From assembly GCF_000428525.1 (NCBI RefSeq), contig NZ_AUAC01000002.1, forward strand, positions 186,001 through 250,000: 64,000 nt of DNA. The letters are read 5' to 3'. A program made the translations under genes and the position numbers. Each line of letters starts with the position of its first letter. Within the stretch, counting starts at the first letter, position 1. Shown piece after piece: positions 3,018-43,225 of this stretch. The DNA comes from Hellea balneolensis DSM 19091. GTDB lineage: Bacteria; Pseudomonadota; Alphaproteobacteria; Caulobacterales; Maricaulaceae. The notes under the pieces were generated by a model. The model did no database searches and was not told where the DNA came from. It saw only the letters and a list, made by a program, of their open reading frames with translations.

Positions 3018-3949
3018 TGGCATGTTCCTGTTTGCTCAATACGGTGCATCAAGGACGTCAAGCCAGGCCGCCTCACGCTGACTTCTCTGACTAGATCATT
3101 TCGGTTTTTTAAAGCAGTCATAAAAGCAGAAACGAATGACACTTCGCTCGCTTGTGTCATAGCAGTCCATATGGTCGGAAGCTCGCCTTGACTAAATTCA
3201 AAAGGTTTCATGGACTTTACCACTTCAGCCTCAGGCGGAGAGGCATAGCGCACCATGACCTCGCGCATGCCCGCAAAATTTCGGCTTAAGATACGCGGCG
3301 GCGTATCAAAGTCCAATTTAGCGCCATCACATAAAATCAGAACCTTATCGCAAAGCGCTTCCGCTTGCTCTAGCTCATGTGTGACTAATAAAACGGCAAT
3401 GCCTCTCTCAGCAAGTTTTCTGGCCAGCCTGTGGAGTGTGTCGCGGGCAGGGACATCAACGCCCGCCGTAGGCTCGTCGAAAATAATGACTGTTGGGTTG
3501 TGCATTATCGCCGCGGCTACATTGATACGGCGTTTCATTCCGCCCGATAACGCACTCACCAAATCATTGGCTTTACCGCTCATGCCAACGGCTATGAGTG
3601 CATCCTCTACAGCCGTTTTACGGCTTGTTTTCGGTAGACCCATAATCTTCGCAAAAACCGTTAAATTCTCTCTCGCGCTCATATGGCCATAAAGGCCTAT
3701 ATCTTGCGGAACGAGGCCCAATAACTTCTGACGGTCATGCCCGCGTTTTAGCCGTGCATCCGCAATTTCAACATAACCATCGTAATTAACACGCCCACAT
3801 AATGCCTTGATAAAGCTTGTTTTTCCAGCTCCATTTGGTCCTATAATGCCTATAAGCTCACCAGACGCAATTTCTACATCGATATTCTTAAGGGCATGAT
3901 GTTTGCCGTAACGAACTGAAAGATCAGAAACACGCAATGCTGATGTCAT
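3014..3949 (-). CDS. ABC transporter ATP-binding protein
   Basis: Cytoplasmic ATPase partner of the downstream permease (311 residues). The nucleotide-binding domain fills roughly residues 5-220: Walker A GPNGAGKTS, Q-loop LVPQDIG, signature LSGGMKRR, Walker B VIIFDEPTAGVD and the switch His in LLVTHE. A C-terminal extension of about 90 residues (YASPPEAEVV onward) is typical of ABC-2 exporters of the CcmA/DrrA/NatA type. It starts with an ATGA overlap on the crtE stop. The pairing with the next gene is certain; the transported molecule is not known. Confidence 0.92.
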   Translation of the reverse strand: MTSALRVSDLSVRYGKHHALKNIDVEIASGELIGIIGPNGAGKTSFIKALCGRVNYDGYVEIADARLKRGHDRQKLLGLVPQDIGLYGHMSARENLTVFAKIMGLPKTSRKTAVEDALIAVGMSGKANDLVSALSGGMKRRINVAAAIMHNPTVIIFDEPTAGVDVPARDTLHRLARKLAERGIAVLLVTHELEQAEALCDKVLILCDGAKLDFDTPPRILSRNFAGMREVMVRYASPPEAEVVKSMKPFEFSQGELPTIWTAMTQASEVSFVSAFMTALKNRNDLVREVSVRRPGLTSLMHRIEQTGTCQ

Positions 3950-4863
3950 GACGTCAGGAATGAGAATTGAGCATCCAAAACGGCGTTGAGCGTTAAGTCA
4001 TTACTCAACTTAGCCCGGGCTATAGCGGCCTTAGCACTGTCAATATAAGCGCCGAGCCGCTCCATTGCCGCCTCTGAACCTGTCAGCGCCAGTATAGTGG
4101 CCTTACCCACATCCCGGCCAACGGATTTTTCGGCCTCTTTATCGGTCATGACTGTATCTTTAACATCATCCATCAATTGAAAAGCGAGCCCTAAGTGATA
4201 AGAAAAGTCTTTTAAAGCCGCTCGTTGAGCCGATTCAGCACCCGCTAACACTGACGCGCCTTCCACACTAAAATCAAATAAAGCACCTGTTTTCAATGTA
4301 TTAAGGCGTTCTATTTCAGCAACGCTAGCATTTGCATCACTATTAGCCAGATCCGCTATTTGCCCTGCAATCAAGCCTTTGGATCCAACCGCATAAGATA
4401 GCAGGTCAACAAGCTCGATACGCTTCTCCGCATCAACATTTTTTAAGCGTGACAACACCCCAAATGCGCGGTTCAACAAAGCTGTCGCTGTTAAGATGGC
4501 GGTGCTTTCATCAAAGGCGATATGCGTTGTAGGTTGGTTTCGCCGCAACGCGGCATCATCCATACAGGGTAAATCATCCAGAATTAAAGATGCAGCATGC
4601 ACCATCTCCGCCACACAACCTACATCAATAGCTGCTTCTCCTTCGAACCCGATACCTTTGGCGACAAATACGCAAAGTAAGGGCCTGAAACGCTTTCCTG
4701 GGGACAAAAGCGCATGACGCTGTGCTTCGTGAAGACGTGCTGGCCATGTTTGTGCAGAAGGCACTATGCTGAACAAGCGCGTTTCTATTGCTGCACGGGC
4801 ACCGCTAAGGTCTTTTTCTAGCGATTGCCTTAATGACATGGTCTTTAGATTCTCAACAGACAT
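3946..4863 (-). CDS. crtE: Geranylgeranyl (polyprenyl) diphosphate synthase
   Basis: Trans-prenyltransferase of the FPP/GGPP synthase family, supplying C20 diphosphate for carotenoids. The first aspartate-rich motif is LDDLPCMDD, followed by RRNQPTTH; the second is in FQLMDDVKDT with downstream GKAT. Context with crtW and crtZ favours GGPP synthase (CrtE) over IspA, though the motif spacing alone cannot exclude farnesyl diphosphate synthase. The start is uncertain: candidates are TTG 4914, ATG 4863 and ATG 4839, none with a clear ribosome-binding site; the conserved domain begins after all three. It follows the nuclease gene by about 60 bases and overlaps the ABC ATPase start by ATGA. Confidence 0.88.
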   Translation of the reverse strand: MSVENLKTMSLRQSLEKDLSGARAAIETRLFSIVPSAQTWPARLHEAQRHALLSPGKRFRPLLCVFVAKGIGFEGEAAIDVGCVAEMVHAASLILDDLPCMDDAALRRNQPTTHIAFDESTAILTATALLNRAFGVLSRLKNVDAEKRIELVDLLSYAVGSKGLIAGQIADLANSDANASVAEIERLNTLKTGALFDFSVEGASVLAGAESAQRAALKDFSYHLGLAFQLMDDVKDTVMTDKEAEKSVGRDVGKATILALTGSEAAMERLGAYIDSAKAAIARAKLSNDLTLNAVLDAQFSFLTS

Positions 4864-4926
4864 GTTTACGTTTTGGCATAGCCATAACTCTGAGGAAAGA
4901 AAATAGCACGACAAAGCGCAGAATGT

Positions 4927-7092
4927 TTACGCCTGCAACTCTAAACGCTTTGTGTTGATGAGCTTGAGTAATTCTGCCGCCGCTTTCGCGTCACATAATG
5001 CACGGTGATGACCCGTAAGGTCTATCTCAAATTCTTGGCACAGATTTTTCAAACTATAAGAACGATAACCTGAATATAGTTTTCGCATGGACGCGCAGGT
5101 ACATATTTTGGGATGACGAAATTTCTGACCCAAGCGTTTATATTCGGAGGCGATAAACCCGTAATCAAAATTCACATTATGGGCCGCAAAAATAGCGTCT
5201 CCCATAAAATCCCTAAAACTATCTGCTACCTCGTGGAAAAGAGGGGCCTCCCTGACCATGTCCTGAGTGATCCCGGTTAGCCGCGTGATATTAGCTGGAA
5301 TTGAGCGCTGGGGATTTAACAGGCTTTGCCATTCACCAATAACTTTTCCGCTTTGAACTTTAACAGCGCCAATCTCTGTCAGTCGGTGTAATCCGGCTCT
5401 GCCGCCTGTTGTTTCAACGTCAACAACAACATATATTTGATCCGGATCCAGGACCCAATCAATACGCGTAATCTGTGTCTCAAACCCTGCTTGCCTGAGC
5501 TGCTGAATACGGGTCAATTGATTGCGCCGAATAACGTCACCTTCCGCCTTAATTTCAACAAAGCGAATATGCCCGTTTTCAACACACATTAAATCCGGAA
5601 AACCATCTTTCATCTGGTTATAATTCTGAACCATTAACCGCATAATAATGGACAAGGAGTCAGGTGGAGCTTGAAAAAGTAATGTTTTTACTTTCTCAAC
5701 TGTTCGTCCGTTCCACCGGAAAATCCCATTAGGTGTGTTATGATGGCGACTGATGACTTTCAGCAAGTCTATCAAGACTAAATTCGCTTTGGAAAGGTGT
5801 TTTAATTTTAGCTCTATTGCATCTTTATAATGGGTATAAAAATCACCTGATTTCAATAGTGCTGGAATGCGCTCAAAACTATTATAGAGACCTGCCGCGC
5901 TGTCTCCGTAAAGCTCCTCCCAGAATAATAGCCCAAAAAGCATTCGCCACATTGCATTTTCAGTTCGATATACGGTCTGGCCCTTAGCCTCATAGTAACG
6001 TTTAGCAGCGGCTTCGGGTTGATTACGATAAGCTTCATCAAGCTTTATATTGTCACCGCCGCGCAAAATATCTGTAACCAAACTTGTGCGCTTTTTTTGG
6101 AACTTTCGGCTATAAAAATCCTGTGCAAAATTATGTTCCTCATCGCTTCCGGGGTTGTCGATAAGGTCTAATAAGCGTTTTTCGCTCCACTCTTTTTCAC
6201 CCTGCCTATATCGAATACGAATAACGCGCTCATTACATAAAGGCGTATCGCTACGCTCATATAGTGATAAAGCCGTTGAGATGTCTTCCAGGCGTTCGGC
6301 AAGGCCGCCAAGCTTTTGTAATAGCTTATCTCTGCTGTGTGTGCTCACAGGACATATAGGAGCAGGCCAGTTATCAACACTGTCAATCAAAGCCGTAATA
6401 TCAGCCTCTGTTCCATGCTTGAAATCATGTAATGCACTTGCATAAAAATAGGCCGCTTGAGCCTCTTGAGACGTCTCAAAACGCGCGCCATAATCTTCTT
6501 TAAAATCAGGCGTTTTAATAAGTCCCAAATCCCGCATGGTGAAATTTTGAAGGTTAGTCTCGATCTTCCCAAAATAGAGAAATAAACAAAAATTAAGAGC
6601 GTCCTGACGCGACTGAACAATGTAATGCGGGTCTATGATATCTTTGGAGTAGGGAATATGCGTTAGAGCTGCATCAACCAAAACAGCTTTCTTCCAAGAA
6701 ACCCTATAAGCACTTGCGCAAACATGTTTCATCAAAAAGGCAATAAGCTCAGTTTTGGAGAGGGACATTAAAAAGCTAGCGTAATTTTCCGGTGCAACTG
6801 CTGAGACAAAATTCAGTTCGCGTAAAATAGTGGCTTGTTTTTTAAGGTGAGGGATTTCCGCATAGGATAGCTTTTCCAAGGAGAATACAGCCCCTTTTCG
6901 CCCAGCTAACCTCGCATAAAGACATTGCGCGGGGACAGGCAGGGCCGCGAAGTCTTTTAAAAATGATTTTTGCTCATCCTGCACAACAGCTTCATAGCGC
7001 TCTGCAACAAACTTCAGCATCTCGCAAAAATTTGTGTGATAATAATATTGAGGCAAATCAGGCAGGGCGCGTTTTTGTCTCTGCGGTCTCAA
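4927..7092 (-). CDS. FAN1-like VRR-NUC nuclease fused to a DnaQ-type 3'-5' exonuclease
   Basis: A 721-residue two-part nuclease. Residues 1-546 match the FAN1 family: an N-terminal YYYHTNFCEML block, AQCLYARLAGRKG (about 55-67) and a C-terminal VRR-NUC core with D500 (GFPDLM), E513 and K515 (VEIKAEGD) followed by RNQ. FAN1 proteins incise DNA near branches and unhook interstrand crosslinks. Residues 553-721 are a DEDDh exonuclease: D558/E560 (DVETTG), D643 (HNVNFDYGF), H696 and D701 (HHRALCDA), as in DNA polymerase III epsilon. All catalytic residues are present. The gene overlaps the upstream Y-polymerase by ATGA, so both are probably SOS-induced. The fusion is unusual in my knowledge of FAN1 proteins. 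Confidence 0.88.
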   Translation of the reverse strand: MRPQRQKRALPDLPQYYYHTNFCEMLKFVAERYEAVVQDEQKSFLKDFAALPVPAQCLYARLAGRKGAVFSLEKLSYAEIPHLKKQATILRELNFVSAVAPENYASFLMSLSKTELIAFLMKHVCASAYRVSWKKAVLVDAALTHIPYSKDIIDPHYIVQSRQDALNFCLFLYFGKIETNLQNFTMRDLGLIKTPDFKEDYGARFETSQEAQAAYFYASALHDFKHGTEADITALIDSVDNWPAPICPVSTHSRDKLLQKLGGLAERLEDISTALSLYERSDTPLCNERVIRIRYRQGEKEWSEKRLLDLIDNPGSDEEHNFAQDFYSRKFQKKRTSLVTDILRGGDNIKLDEAYRNQPEAAAKRYYEAKGQTVYRTENAMWRMLFGLLFWEELYGDSAAGLYNSFERIPALLKSGDFYTHYKDAIELKLKHLSKANLVLIDLLKVISRHHNTPNGIFRWNGRTVEKVKTLLFQAPPDSLSIIMRLMVQNYNQMKDGFPDLMCVENGHIRFVEIKAEGDVIRRNQLTRIQQLRQAGFETQITRIDWVLDPDQIYVVVDVETTGGRAGLHRLTEIGAVKVQSGKVIGEWQSLLNPQRSIPANITRLTGITQDMVREAPLFHEVADSFRDFMGDAIFAAHNVNFDYGFIASEYKRLGQKFRHPKICTCASMRKLYSGYRSYSLKNLCQEFEIDLTGHHRALCDAKAAAELLKLINTKRLELQA

Positions 7093-8327
7093 AAGAAATC
7101 CTCCGCATCAGGAACACGGCCGAACGCGATTTTTGCCCCCGCATATCCTCCTGGAATTTTGTAGCGCGGCCCAAGGTGGATGAGTGCTTTTTTTTCTTTG
7201 CGGTTATAGCTGTCCATGACATCTGTGAGCTTATCCCAATTTCGGGTGTCTTGCGGCTCGAAAAGATCTCGGCCTCGTTCACTCGGCAAGGCGATTTTGT
7301 GAAGCATGACATAGACTGCTGCCAGTTGGCGGGGCCTCATTTCAGAGATCCCGCGCTCATAAAGTCTGTGCATATGCTTTAACAGGCTATGATCATCACG
7401 GCAGGAGGGAAATTGAGTCTCTCCCGTCCAGCGCCGTTTGTTTTGATCCCGCAAAGACACAGACATAGCTGCAGCTGTGTAATTTTCCCGGCGCAAGCGA
7501 TTAGCCGCTTTCACCGTGAGGAGGCGTAGGCAATCAATCGCCCGTTTTGGGTTTTTAAACTCACCCGAAAGCACGCGGCTATGGCCGAACATACGGCGTG
7601 TTGTCTTGGGGCGTTCAATTTTATGGCCGTGGAGTTGCGCCCACATACGCTCGCCCTCAACATTCCCCCAAATCGCCCGGGCATGTTTGGCTGAGATCTT
7701 CCAAAAATCCTCGACAGATAAAATCCCCGCCGCGCTCAGGCGCTTTTCCATCCCGGTTGAAATACCCGGCAGATCTGAGAGGTTAAGGCTAAGCAACGGG
7801 CCGGGCAAATCCTCGCTACGCAGCATAACAAACCCATTAGGTTTCTCAAGCTCAGCTGCCACTTTGGCCAAAAATTGGTTGGGGGCCAAGCCAATTGAGG
7901 GCGTGATGTAAGCGCCTATATTGCGTCGCAACCCTAGCTGCACATCGAGGCCGATTTCATAGGCCTGCTCTCGTTCCCGTCCGATCAGCTCACATTCCAT
8001 TTCATCGATAGACCAGACCTTTTTGATAGGAATGTGCCGGTTTATCTCTTGAATAATTTTATTATGAATATCGACATAAACATCAGGCCGGGCCACACGG
8101 ATAGCAATATCGGGACAGGCTTCACGCGCCTCTGAGACCCGCATACCCCGCGTAATGCCGGCCCGCTTTGCCATATAGCACCGCGTTATCAGGGCAGAGT
8201 GTTCAGACCCCAAGGCTGTTATGCCCACTGGCTTTGAGCGAATGTTCGGTTCCAGCTGTTTTTCGACATTGGCAAAAAACGCATCAAAGTCGATATAAAG
8301 CGAATTTATGGAGCAGGGTGGTTGCAT
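7089..8327 (-). CDS. Y-family (DinB/ImpB-like) translesion DNA polymerase
   Basis: Error-prone or translesion polymerase of the DinB/UmuC superfamily, 412 residues. The palm residues are intact: D13 in YIDFDAFFA, D108/E109 in VWSIDEME; F18 occupies the steric-gate position. The helix-hairpin-helix thumb segment is DLPGISTGMEKRLSAAGI, followed by a little-finger domain. The C-terminus ends GRVPDAEDFF, a tail seen in alphaproteobacterial proteins often mislabelled 'type VI secretion ImpB'. The start has AGAGGA at good spacing. A LexA box lies 20 bases upstream, and the gene is fused by an ATGA overlap to the FAN1-like nuclease, pointing to SOS-inducible lesion bypass and processing. Confidence 0.92.
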   Translation of the reverse strand: MQPPCSINSLYIDFDAFFANVEKQLEPNIRSKPVGITALGSEHSALITRCYMAKRAGITRGMRVSEAREACPDIAIRVARPDVYVDIHNKIIQEINRHIPIKKVWSIDEMECELIGREREQAYEIGLDVQLGLRRNIGAYITPSIGLAPNQFLAKVAAELEKPNGFVMLRSEDLPGPLLSLNLSDLPGISTGMEKRLSAAGILSVEDFWKISAKHARAIWGNVEGERMWAQLHGHKIERPKTTRRMFGHSRVLSGEFKNPKRAIDCLRLLTVKAANRLRRENYTAAAMSVSLRDQNKRRWTGETQFPSCRDDHSLLKHMHRLYERGISEMRPRQLAAVYVMLHKIALPSERGRDLFEPQDTRNWDKLTDVMDSYNRKEKKALIHLGPRYKIPGGYAGAKIAFGRVPDAEDFF

Positions 8328-8346
8328 ATATGTCCTCTATAAAACC

Positions 8347-8361
8347 GAACATATATAGAAC
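8347..8361 (-). promoter_or_regulatory. LexA (SOS) box of the polymerase/FAN1 operon
   Basis: On the plus strand the sequence is GAAC-ATATATA-GAAC, i.e. GTTC-N7-GTTC on the coding strand, an exact match to the direct-repeat LexA operator known in Alphaproteobacteria. It sits 20 bases before the polymerase start codon and overlaps a plausible -10 region (TATATA). A -35-like TCGACA lies upstream in the neighbouring inverted repeat. Confidence 0.88.
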
Positions 8362-9868: not shown

Positions 9869-11386
9869 TTAAACTGGCTTGGCTCCATATGTTTCTAGAA
9901 ATGCCTCATGGGTTGGCATGTTATAGACAGCCCGCTTCATAGCATTTTGCATTGATCCAAGGCTATGCTTAACCTGCTCATGGGGCAAAGATGAAACAAT
10001 AGGGTCAATGGCCTTTGGAATAACGTTTTGGCCAAGACATACCGCGATCCAGCTAGCTTTCGAGAAAAGTTCGTCATCATACCTAAAGACACGGCCGGCC
10101 TCACGAAATAGATCGATTTTTCTGGAAAGGCTTTCCGGAACACTCATATTTCTACAATAATTCCAAAACGGGCTATCAGCACGCTGAGTAGCTGCATAAT
10201 GCAAGATGATAAAATCCCTGACTTGATGAAATTCCTTTAGCATTTGTTTGTTATATTCATCACGCACAACGTTAGACACATTCGCCGTGGGGAATAATGT
10301 AATAAAACGGCTAATGCCCATCTGAATTAAGAACAATGATGTGGACTCAAGAGGCTCCAAGAAGCCCGCCGATAATCCGATGGAGATACAATTCTTATTC
10401 CAAAGTGTTTCGCGGCATCCTGTTTTAAAATTGATTTTACGAGGCCCACCGAGTGGCTTGCTATCTAGCCCATCCATGAGAATATCAATGGCTTCATTAT
10501 CACCCATAAATTTACTTGAATATATGTGACCGTTTCCGGTCCTATGTTGCGTTGGAATACGCCACTGCCAACCTGCGTTCTTAGCGGTGGCTTTTGTATA
10601 TGGCAGCAATGCACCGACCCGCTCACTCGCGACCGTTTGGGCGCTATCACAGGGGAGCCAATGACTCCAATCCGTGAAAGGCACTTTTAAAGCCTTTTCG
10701 GTAAGTAATGCTCTAAAACCCGTACAATCAAAAAAGAAGTCACCCTCAATCTGACTTCCGTTGTCCATGGTTAGGCTGGAAACGTTACCATGTTCAGGCT
10801 CAAGTGATACACCTTCTACTTTTCCTTCTATCCGTTTAACGCCTCGCTTTTCAGCATAATCACGAAGGAATTTTGCATAAAGCGTCGCATCAATATGATA
10901 GGCATAACGCAAATGAGACAAAACAGAACGTGGATTGGTGTCCGGTAAAACAAATTTGTCGTGCTCAGCGGCTACAGCACACATACTATAATCCTGAAGC
11001 GGGGATGAATTTCCTGCGGATTTAGCGTGCAGCCAATATTGGTGAAAATCGATTCCTTGCATATCGACGCCAATATTGCCGAAAGGATGAATGTAAGATT
11101 CGCCTTTTTGGCCCCAGTCAATAAATTCGATGCCTAATTTAAACGTGCCGTTCGTCGCTTTTAAGAACTCAGCCTCATTGATCCCCAACATCGCATTGAA
11201 ATTGATCATATCGGGAATAGTGGCCTCGCCAACACCCACAGTTCCGATCTGCTCAGATTCAATGAGAGTAATATTGACTGATTCGGGTGACAAGAGACTT
11301 GAAAGAGCGGCTGCAGTCATCCAACCGGCGGATCCACCGCCGACGATTATGATGCTTCGCAGCGCGTTTTTTTGTATTTCAGCCAT
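9869..11386 (-). CDS. Tryptophan 7-halogenase-like flavoprotein (first copy)
   Basis: FAD-dependent halogenase family (PrnA/RebH fold), 505 residues. Seen: N-terminal FAD motif VGGGSAGWMTAAAL, GEATIP (53-58), the catalytic-lysine segment TFKLGIEF with K83, the WxWxIP signature as GWQWRIP and the PLESTS motif carrying the Glu/Ser pair near the chloride/FAD channel. These residues fit an active flavin halogenase, but in Caulobacter- and Xanthomonas-like genomes such proteins commonly sit beside TonB-dependent receptors with no known halogenated product, so the substrate is open. It is divergent from the receptor at 11610, shares its control region and has AAAGGTTG before the start. Confidence 0.85.
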   Translation of the reverse strand: MAEIQKNALRSIIIVGGGSAGWMTAAALSSLLSPESVNITLIESEQIGTVGVGEATIPDMINFNAMLGINEAEFLKATNGTFKLGIEFIDWGQKGESYIHPFGNIGVDMQGIDFHQYWLHAKSAGNSSPLQDYSMCAVAAEHDKFVLPDTNPRSVLSHLRYAYHIDATLYAKFLRDYAEKRGVKRIEGKVEGVSLEPEHGNVSSLTMDNGSQIEGDFFFDCTGFRALLTEKALKVPFTDWSHWLPCDSAQTVASERVGALLPYTKATAKNAGWQWRIPTQHRTGNGHIYSSKFMGDNEAIDILMDGLDSKPLGGPRKINFKTGCRETLWNKNCISIGLSAGFLEPLESTSLFLIQMGISRFITLFPTANVSNVVRDEYNKQMLKEFHQVRDFIILHYAATQRADSPFWNYCRNMSVPESLSRKIDLFREAGRVFRYDDELFSKASWIAVCLGQNVIPKAIDPIVSSLPHEQVKHSLGSMQNAMKRAVYNMPTHEAFLETYGAKPV

Positions 11387-43210: not shown

Positions 43211-43225
43211 GTTCTTATTATGTTC
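43211..43225. promoter_or_regulatory. LexA (SOS) box between ssb and uvrA
   Basis: GTTC-TTATTAT-GTTC, an exact direct-repeat LexA site. It lies 31 bases from the ssb ATG and 129 bases from the uvrA ATG, so it may repress one or both divergent promoters. UvrA and Ssb are known SOS targets in Alphaproteobacteria. Confidence 0.88.

Follow-up and report, generated by a model that had tools for sequence, protein, structure and literature searches.

A FAN1 nuclease fused to a DEDDh exonuclease in Hellea balneolensis and other Pseudomonadota: sequence evidence of SOS control

We analysed a stretch of 64,000 nucleotides from Hellea balneolensis DSM 19091 (contig NZ_AUAC01000002.1, positions 186,001 to 250,000; hereafter, the window) and found a gene coding for a FAN1-type nuclease that continues into a DEDDh exonuclease. 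The fusion is a genuine but infrequent architecture within a known nuclease family, and the sequence evidence of its SOS control is strong. Our reading starts from what we established here: the architecture, the conservation of the active sites, the single clade of the fusions, the operators of two LexA types before their genes, and the limits of the link to a neighbouring translesion polymerase gene (dinB). Some SOS-induced role of the fusion in repair is highly likely. That it works as an SOS-induced bifunctional (two-headed) DNA-repair nuclease, with a cut-and-trim mode of action, seems fairly likely, and crosslinks can be suggested as its main substrate only tentatively.

The fusion gene and its domains are located as follows:
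4927..7092, minus strand: FAN1–DEDDh fusion nuclease gene, 721 amino acids in a single chain, TTG start
6805..7047, minus strand: FAN1_HTH domain, amino acids 16-96 (Pfam PF21315, E 3.4e-21)
5467..5754, minus strand: VRR-NUC nuclease domain, amino acids 447-542, with D500, E513 and K515 (Pfam PF08774, E 2.4e-11)
4966..5430, minus strand: DEDDh exonuclease domain, amino acids 555-709, with D558, E560, D643, H696 and D701 (PF00929, RNase_T, E 2.1e-39)

All three domains passed their Pfam gathering scores (FAN1_HTH, 75.4 bits vs. 27; VRR_NUC, 44.1 vs. 23.8; RNase_T, 136.1 vs. 24). The nearest solved relatives were Pseudomonas aeruginosa FAN1 (PaFAN1) for residues 11-549 and PolC-type exonucleases for residues 551-709. 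An AlphaFold model, for which the input was 25 of the 29 fusions aligned at that stage, reached a mean pLDDT of 88.8 and a pTM of 0.74. With this predicted model, Foldseek returned PaFAN1 chains at TM-scores of 0.80-0.84 by target length (best-quoted match 5y7g_A, E 8.2e-25, 0.84) and also human FAN1; according to the model, the fusion has the whole FAN1 fold. Its C-terminal part matched DinG, epsilon and PolC exonucleases. In NCBIfam, the best match of the exonuclease part was PRK07883.1-4 ('DEDD exonuclease domain-containing protein'), far under the cut-off; we take PRK07883 proteins to be UvrC-type fusions. Because the reading frame is open from end to end in the source genome and full-length fusions were found again in further genomes, the fusion is no assembly or frame artefact, and an origin by frameshift or misassembly was ruled out. 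The first-pass annotation had placed the gene at these coordinates and described a FAN1-plus-DEDDh double nuclease; open reading frames, Pfam domains and the conservation of both active sites confirmed it.

For the FAN1 half, D500, E513 and K515 pair in the alignment with D507, E522 and K524 of PaFAN1, named in the excerpt of PMC9635880. These D, E and K residues were present in 32/32 fusions and in 14/14 stand-alone FAN1s. For the exonuclease half, D558, E560, D643, H696 and D701 form the DEDDh set; E560 was kept in 31/32 fusions and the other four in all 32. Since the catalytic residues are kept so widely, both nuclease centres seem to be under selection in nearly all the members seen. Human and P. 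aeruginosa FAN1 show 5' flap cleavage and 5'-3' exonuclease activity in the excerpts of PMC4103454 and PMC9635880, and by analogy the FAN1 half of the fusion would have the same activities.

This conservation bears on an alternative in which the DEDDh half would proofread in trans for SOS polymerases, editing error-prone 3' ends, and the FAN1 half would be a targeting module. Its matches to PolC, epsilon and DinG exonucleases fit such a role, Y-family polymerases lack an intrinsic exonuclease, and dinB occasionally adjoins the fusion. However, FAN1 catalytic residues would be superfluous in a pure targeting module, and they are complete in the 32 fusions, whereas the site lost in one lineage, E560, belongs to the exonuclease. 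We consider this explanation improbable.

We surveyed Pseudomonadota genomes, together with plasmid and phage records and loci from metagenome-assembled genomes (MAGs). At the order level, a full-length fusion was found in 11/200 genomes, all 11 within the window's family (40 genomes searched). At the class level, it was found in 4/385 genomes at E up to 1e-40, with the window's genome counted. At the phylum level, FAN1_HTH was detected at 56 places in 55/398 Pseudomonadota genomes: 11 fusions (10 genomes), one split fusion and 44 stand-alone FAN1s. Fusion and stand-alone genes were told apart by the length of the open frame; the long frames of G790 and G748, on inspection, had FAN1-like ends. 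The alphaproteobacterial FAN1_HTH places were fusions in 6/6 cases, and the remaining fusions of the phylum survey all belonged to one family, f191. Within the order of f191, 17/148 genomes matched at E up to 1e-60 (seven intact fusions, one split and nine stand-alone), and three of those intact fusions belonged to another family, f245.

Plasmid records held five fusion places, two in Bradyrhizobium and three in Pseudoalteromonas, and no match came from a near-DNA plasmid search in which a 221-base piece was the query. A scan of the contig set retrieved three loci, namely two fusions and one match limited to residues 519-710. Two MAG loci with the fusion are labelled Robiginitomaculaceae. One genome (G556) carries two copies, and the fusion of Bradyrhizobium sp. 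172 lies on a conjugative plasmid, behind an SOS response-associated peptidase gene (L084). The first-pass annotation had called the one-protein combination unusual. It is uncommon, and we found no description of a FAN1–DEDDh fusion in the open-licence literature searched, but it forms a recurring family, with 11 of the 56 FAN1_HTH places in the 398 genomes plus one broken gene.

In an unrooted tree of 46 rows, one branch with a support of 100/100 split the FAN1 parts of 32 fusions from 14 stand-alone FAN1s, which fits a single fusion event. A near-copy (L087, of L086) and a broken gene (L096) were excluded from alignments and trees. Families f191 and f245 are presumably Gammaproteobacteria, because the tree groups them with named Pseudoalteromonas loci; L095, of f191, stands alone at the tree base, outside this grouping.

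The patchy distribution, the copies on Bradyrhizobium plasmids and the PADLOC matches (PDC-S48 and generic DEDDh) could also point to an SOS-induced nuclease for phage defence or DNA turnover rather than repair. However, the PADLOC matches are confined to the exonuclease domain and a FAN1 fold extends across the FAN1 part; none of the 50,697 phage records matched over 80% of the query; and in 10/13 family loci the fusion keeps the same chromosomal place, its usual address, with a polyprenyl synthetase gene (cluster c1) directly behind it. We regard a defence or turnover function as very unlikely. A phage or defence origin of the fusion was rejected on the negative result in phage records and on the restriction of the PADLOC matches to the exonuclease domain.

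For SOS control, we scanned 300 bp upstream of a common FAN1 anchor, with expectations taken from 30 mononucleotide shuffles. We assume that the LexA word is GAACN7GAAC/GTTCN7GTTC in Alphaproteobacteria and CTGTN8ACAG in Gammaproteobacteria. The strict alphaproteobacterial box was found before the fusion in 9/11 family loci unlinked to a polymerase gene and in 9/9 loci of other Alphaproteobacteria (0.07 expected in each set). With other spacer lengths (3 to 12), it occurred 0 times in the family set and 0 or 1 times in the other. The gammaproteobacterial (Pseudoalteromonas-type) fusions had the strict alphaproteobacterial box in 0/7 loci; they displayed CTGTN8ACAG instead, strictly in 5/7 (two of the five being near-copies) and with one mismatch at most in 7/7 (0.57 expected). 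One locus, L093, fell outside the main scan (anchor not located) and was covered in a scan of four further gammaproteobacterial loci.

A -35-like element, TTGA[C/T], lay within 40 nucleotides upstream of the box in 16/18 alphaproteobacterial loci with a strict box, compared to 15% of the 40-nucleotide stretches there. The box appears to be placed as for an operator covering a promoter, and each class seems to have its own operator at that promoter, as expected if LexA controls the fusion. Descent by itself hardly accounts for the switch from one LexA word to the other between classes.

Could these operators be chance matches, or a property of the neighbouring genes? The bare pattern is common, with 67 occurrences in the source genome, and the Bradyrhizobium japonicum box sits between divergent genes. 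On the other hand, strict boxes precede 18/20 unlinked alphaproteobacterial fusions against about 0.14 expected, the spacer is exactly 7, the gammaproteobacterial loci change to CTGTN8ACAG, and the -35-like element recurs. This explanation is extremely improbable. SOS control, first proposed from one box in the window, now gains stronger support from operators of two LexA types.

Two boxes inside the window are relevant here:
8347..8361, no strand assigned: LexA operator GAACATATATAGAAC (GTTCN7GTTC on the coding strand), 19 nucleotides upstream of the dinB ATG
43211-43225, between divergent uvrA (plus strand) and ssb (minus strand): box GTTCTTATTATGTTC, in the classical SOS arrangement

GAACN7GAAC occurs three times in the window against 1.48 expected, and 11/100 shuffles reach three. 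The bare pattern being too common, a single box was rejected as proof of SOS control. The window's box goes beyond chance because boxes of its type also stand before lexA, recA and ssb/uvrA of the source genome, and before dinB orthologues elsewhere. The identical 15-mer is also found upstream of a DNA polymerase IV gene of the source genome (L045), which passes an NCBIfam Pol IV model (612.6 vs. a cut-off of 371). Besides the window's dinB, two Y-family genes of this genome lie behind boxes with AT-rich spacers, and a fourth starts at a box of the same pattern whose spacer is less rich in A/T. Family models confirmed the identities of LexA, RecA, UvrA (N-terminal part), SSB and one Pol IV. 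Among the 67 boxes, genes were assigned to those with at least five A/T in the spacer that lay within 30 loci and 14 stretches. Because boxes precede lexA, recA, ssb/uvrA and Y-family genes, the source genome's LexA very probably reads the GAACN7GAAC word.

Other genes of this genome also carry such boxes. All four Y-family genes found (C1:193854, C1:594681, C1:652401 and C2:59273 of genome G000) have a box of the GAACN7GAAC type at their start. Three small genes with an alike N-terminus (L051; L070, at 3688; and L074; G000 C1:841264, C3:176187 and C7:85062) have a LexA-type box over the start codon, a match that may also stem from coding constraint. Pfam assigns L051 to GIY-YIG, and L070 and L074 were assigned by likeness. 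An SOS box is reported for one UvrC-like Caulobacter gene, CC3518, in the excerpt of PMC1839093. Behind further AT-rich LexA-type boxes are a radical SAM gene, a C-5 cytosine methylase gene, a DNA polymerase III alpha gene (N-terminal part) and a Mg-chelatase/ComM-like gene (L065, L066, L067 and L073 of G000). In Caulobacter, comM and dnaE are SOS-regulated according to the excerpt of PMC3323433.

In the window, the fusion shares its operator with a polymerase gene:
7089..8327, minus strand: Y-family (DinB-like) translesion polymerase gene, 412 amino acids, ATG start
7089..7092, minus strand: gene overlap TTGA, 4 nucleotides shared by the TGA stop of the polymerase and the TTG start of the fusion; the MAG locus L032 has the same junction
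3946..4914, minus strand: polyprenyl synthetase gene (Pfam PF00348) behind the fusion, outside the system

The polymerase matched Pfam IMS (PF00817, E 1.8e-28, 99.8 bits vs. a gathering score of 23.2) and IMS_C (PF11799, E 2.1e-7). It is thus a Y-family member by Pfam. Each of the 10 NCBIfam models listed scored it under its cut-off (best, 144.1 bits vs. a cut-off of 399), and by NCBIfam it is neither DNA polymerase IV nor UmuC proper. Elsewhere in the window, a tryptophan halogenase family protein is encoded at 9869-11386 (PF04820, E 5.9e-185).

The overlapping pair suggests that polymerase and fusion could be one dedicated crosslink-repair machine, with unhooking, trimming and bypass supplied from one inducible operon. 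In the window and in L032 (polymerase 91% and fusion 78% identical to those of the window), a single LexA operator precedes the two overlapping genes, and the same pair is present in a third genome of the window's group, the same-genus G954, where the locus includes only the first 500 residues of the fusion. Moreover, Y-family genes adjoin the fusion in three more places: in G674, in G824 (a C-terminal remnant) and on the Bradyrhizobium japonicum plasmid (a frameshifted, divergent dinB). Repair genes may simply gather together. In G674 (L089 / L121), the dinB is intact and convergent, 16 bp behind the fusion, and the FAN1 residues are intact despite the lost E560.

Against a dedicated machine, none of the 11 other family loci has a dinB or other polymerase gene beside the fusion, and in eight of them the fusion keeps its usual position ahead of the polyprenyl synthetase gene. 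Among 23 whole genomes (22 intact fusions and one broken), with 60 Y-family catalytic domains in total, such a domain lies within 10 kb of the fusion in two, the window's and G674. Conversely, a dinB orthologue occurs in three other genomes of the same genus, two of which (G929 and G947) lack the fusion within the 1.5 kb that follow the orthologue, and window-type dinB is also present without the fusion elsewhere in the family. A LexA-type box precedes the dinB orthologue in 11 of the best 12 loci among 35 matches, the window counted, and in the twelfth the contig ends 28 nucleotides before the gene. For DnaE, a search with its N-terminal part gave no match in 31 fusion neighbourhoods. We consider a dedicated machine unlikely. 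The polymerase and nuclease had been proposed as a compact system; as a conserved one it did not hold, the link being local. Judging by these loci, the window's overlapping operon is a local variant, and what is conserved is the fusion together with a predicted operator of its own.

Stand-alone FAN1 genes also displayed gammaproteobacterial boxes, strictly in 8/44 (0.1 expected) and within one mismatch in 24/44 (4.1 expected). In the Pseudomonas-like family f195, 15/16 were boxed: 3/16 strictly, 12/16 with CTGT-N8-CCAG, and one had none. One f195 member, when checked, proved closely related to PaFAN1 (phmmer 6e-206). According to the excerpt of PMC12796719, UV-C and ciprofloxacin induce the PaFAN1 gene, PA1865, for which no control by LexA, PrtR/PrtN or AlpR/AlpA, the three known DNA-damage regulons of P. 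aeruginosa, is known.

These data suggest a broader view: FAN1 would be an overlooked SOS gene in part of Pseudomonadota; one lineage would have gained a DEDDh domain, becoming a two-polarity 'cut and trim' enzyme; and the LexA operator would have been kept or rebuilt when the gene crossed between classes with different LexA words. Taken jointly, these steps are about evenly poised between right and wrong. If true, bacteria would possess their own version of the Fanconi FAN1 step, under LexA control. For PA1865, the operator data provide a specific hypothesis, direct LexA control via a degenerate box, for a damage induction left unassigned in the excerpt of PMC12796719.

For the fusion itself, we propose that LexA would repress the gene until damage-activated RecA releases its expression. 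The FAN1 half would cut a 5' flap, branched or unhooking intermediate and digest 5' to 3' past the blocking lesion, and the DEDDh half at the C-terminus would shorten the opposing 3' end. One polypeptide could open a clean gap in this way, which SOS polymerases would refill, dinB among them in the window's group. There, dinB and the fusion, each with its own LexA operator elsewhere, would have merged into the overlapping operon under the dinB operator. Such a gap-making division of labour between the two nuclease halves is what we infer from their expected activities.

Several observations weigh against this proposal. Epsilon-type DEDDh enzymes are 3'-5' exonucleases, and the 3'-5' polarity of the DEDDh half is assumed from such relatives. 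E560 is replaced by glycine in the G674 fusion. The enzyme is dispensable, because 29/40 genomes of the window's family have no full-length match. The G591 fusion (L128, 8410-11849) is split by two transposase-like open reading frames of 140 and 272 amino acids, which we take to resemble an IS3-type transposase pair. At the operator level, GAACN7GAAC shows no genome-wide enrichment in the source genome (67 vs. 112 for the reversed control). Two of the 11 family loci (L004 and L008) have one-mismatch boxes only, which are weak because two loci with such a match are expected by chance among 11. One-mismatch boxes are likewise all that 2/7 scanned gammaproteobacterial loci and the four further ones display, and the alphaproteobacterial L089 also has a strict gammaproteobacterial-type match 242 nucleotides upstream, presumably by chance. 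The operator counts are not independent trials, because loci of one family share ancestry and L087 nearly duplicates L086. Finally, FAN1 is not always an SOS gene, since stand-alone genes mostly lack a box within one mismatch in families f202 (1/8 boxed) and f204 (0/6).

To our knowledge, little has been established about the physiological role of FAN1 in bacteria. A conserved form of it that includes a second exonuclease and stands behind a damage-response operator would be a genetically simple system for testing that role.

Compared with known systems, the fusion shares with bacterial FAN1 (PaFAN1, PA1865) and human FAN1 the full predicted FAN1 fold, FAN1_HTH, and VRR-NUC with its D, E and K. 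It differs in a second nuclease domain of about 160 amino acids behind VRR-NUC; identity to PaFAN1 is 21-23% in the Foldseek alignments, and the fusions form a separate clade. The closest analogue of the pairing is found in the Cho/UvrC-exonuclease fusions, where a lesion-incising endonuclease and a DnaQ-like exonuclease are likewise joined in one chain. The Cho endonuclease is of the GIY-YIG type. Because the endonuclease is Cho there and FAN1 here, the two pairings are independent. Some Cho homologues are described as fused to a DnaQ-like exonuclease in the excerpt of PMC1839093, which places it at the N-terminus, whereas in the FAN1 fusion it is C-terminal. Finally, the window resembles the SOS translesion genes (dinB; imuA-imuB-dnaE2) in having putatively LexA-controlled translesion synthesis beside repair genes, but unlike imuA-imuB-dnaE2, the partner is a dinB-like gene alone, and only in the window's group.

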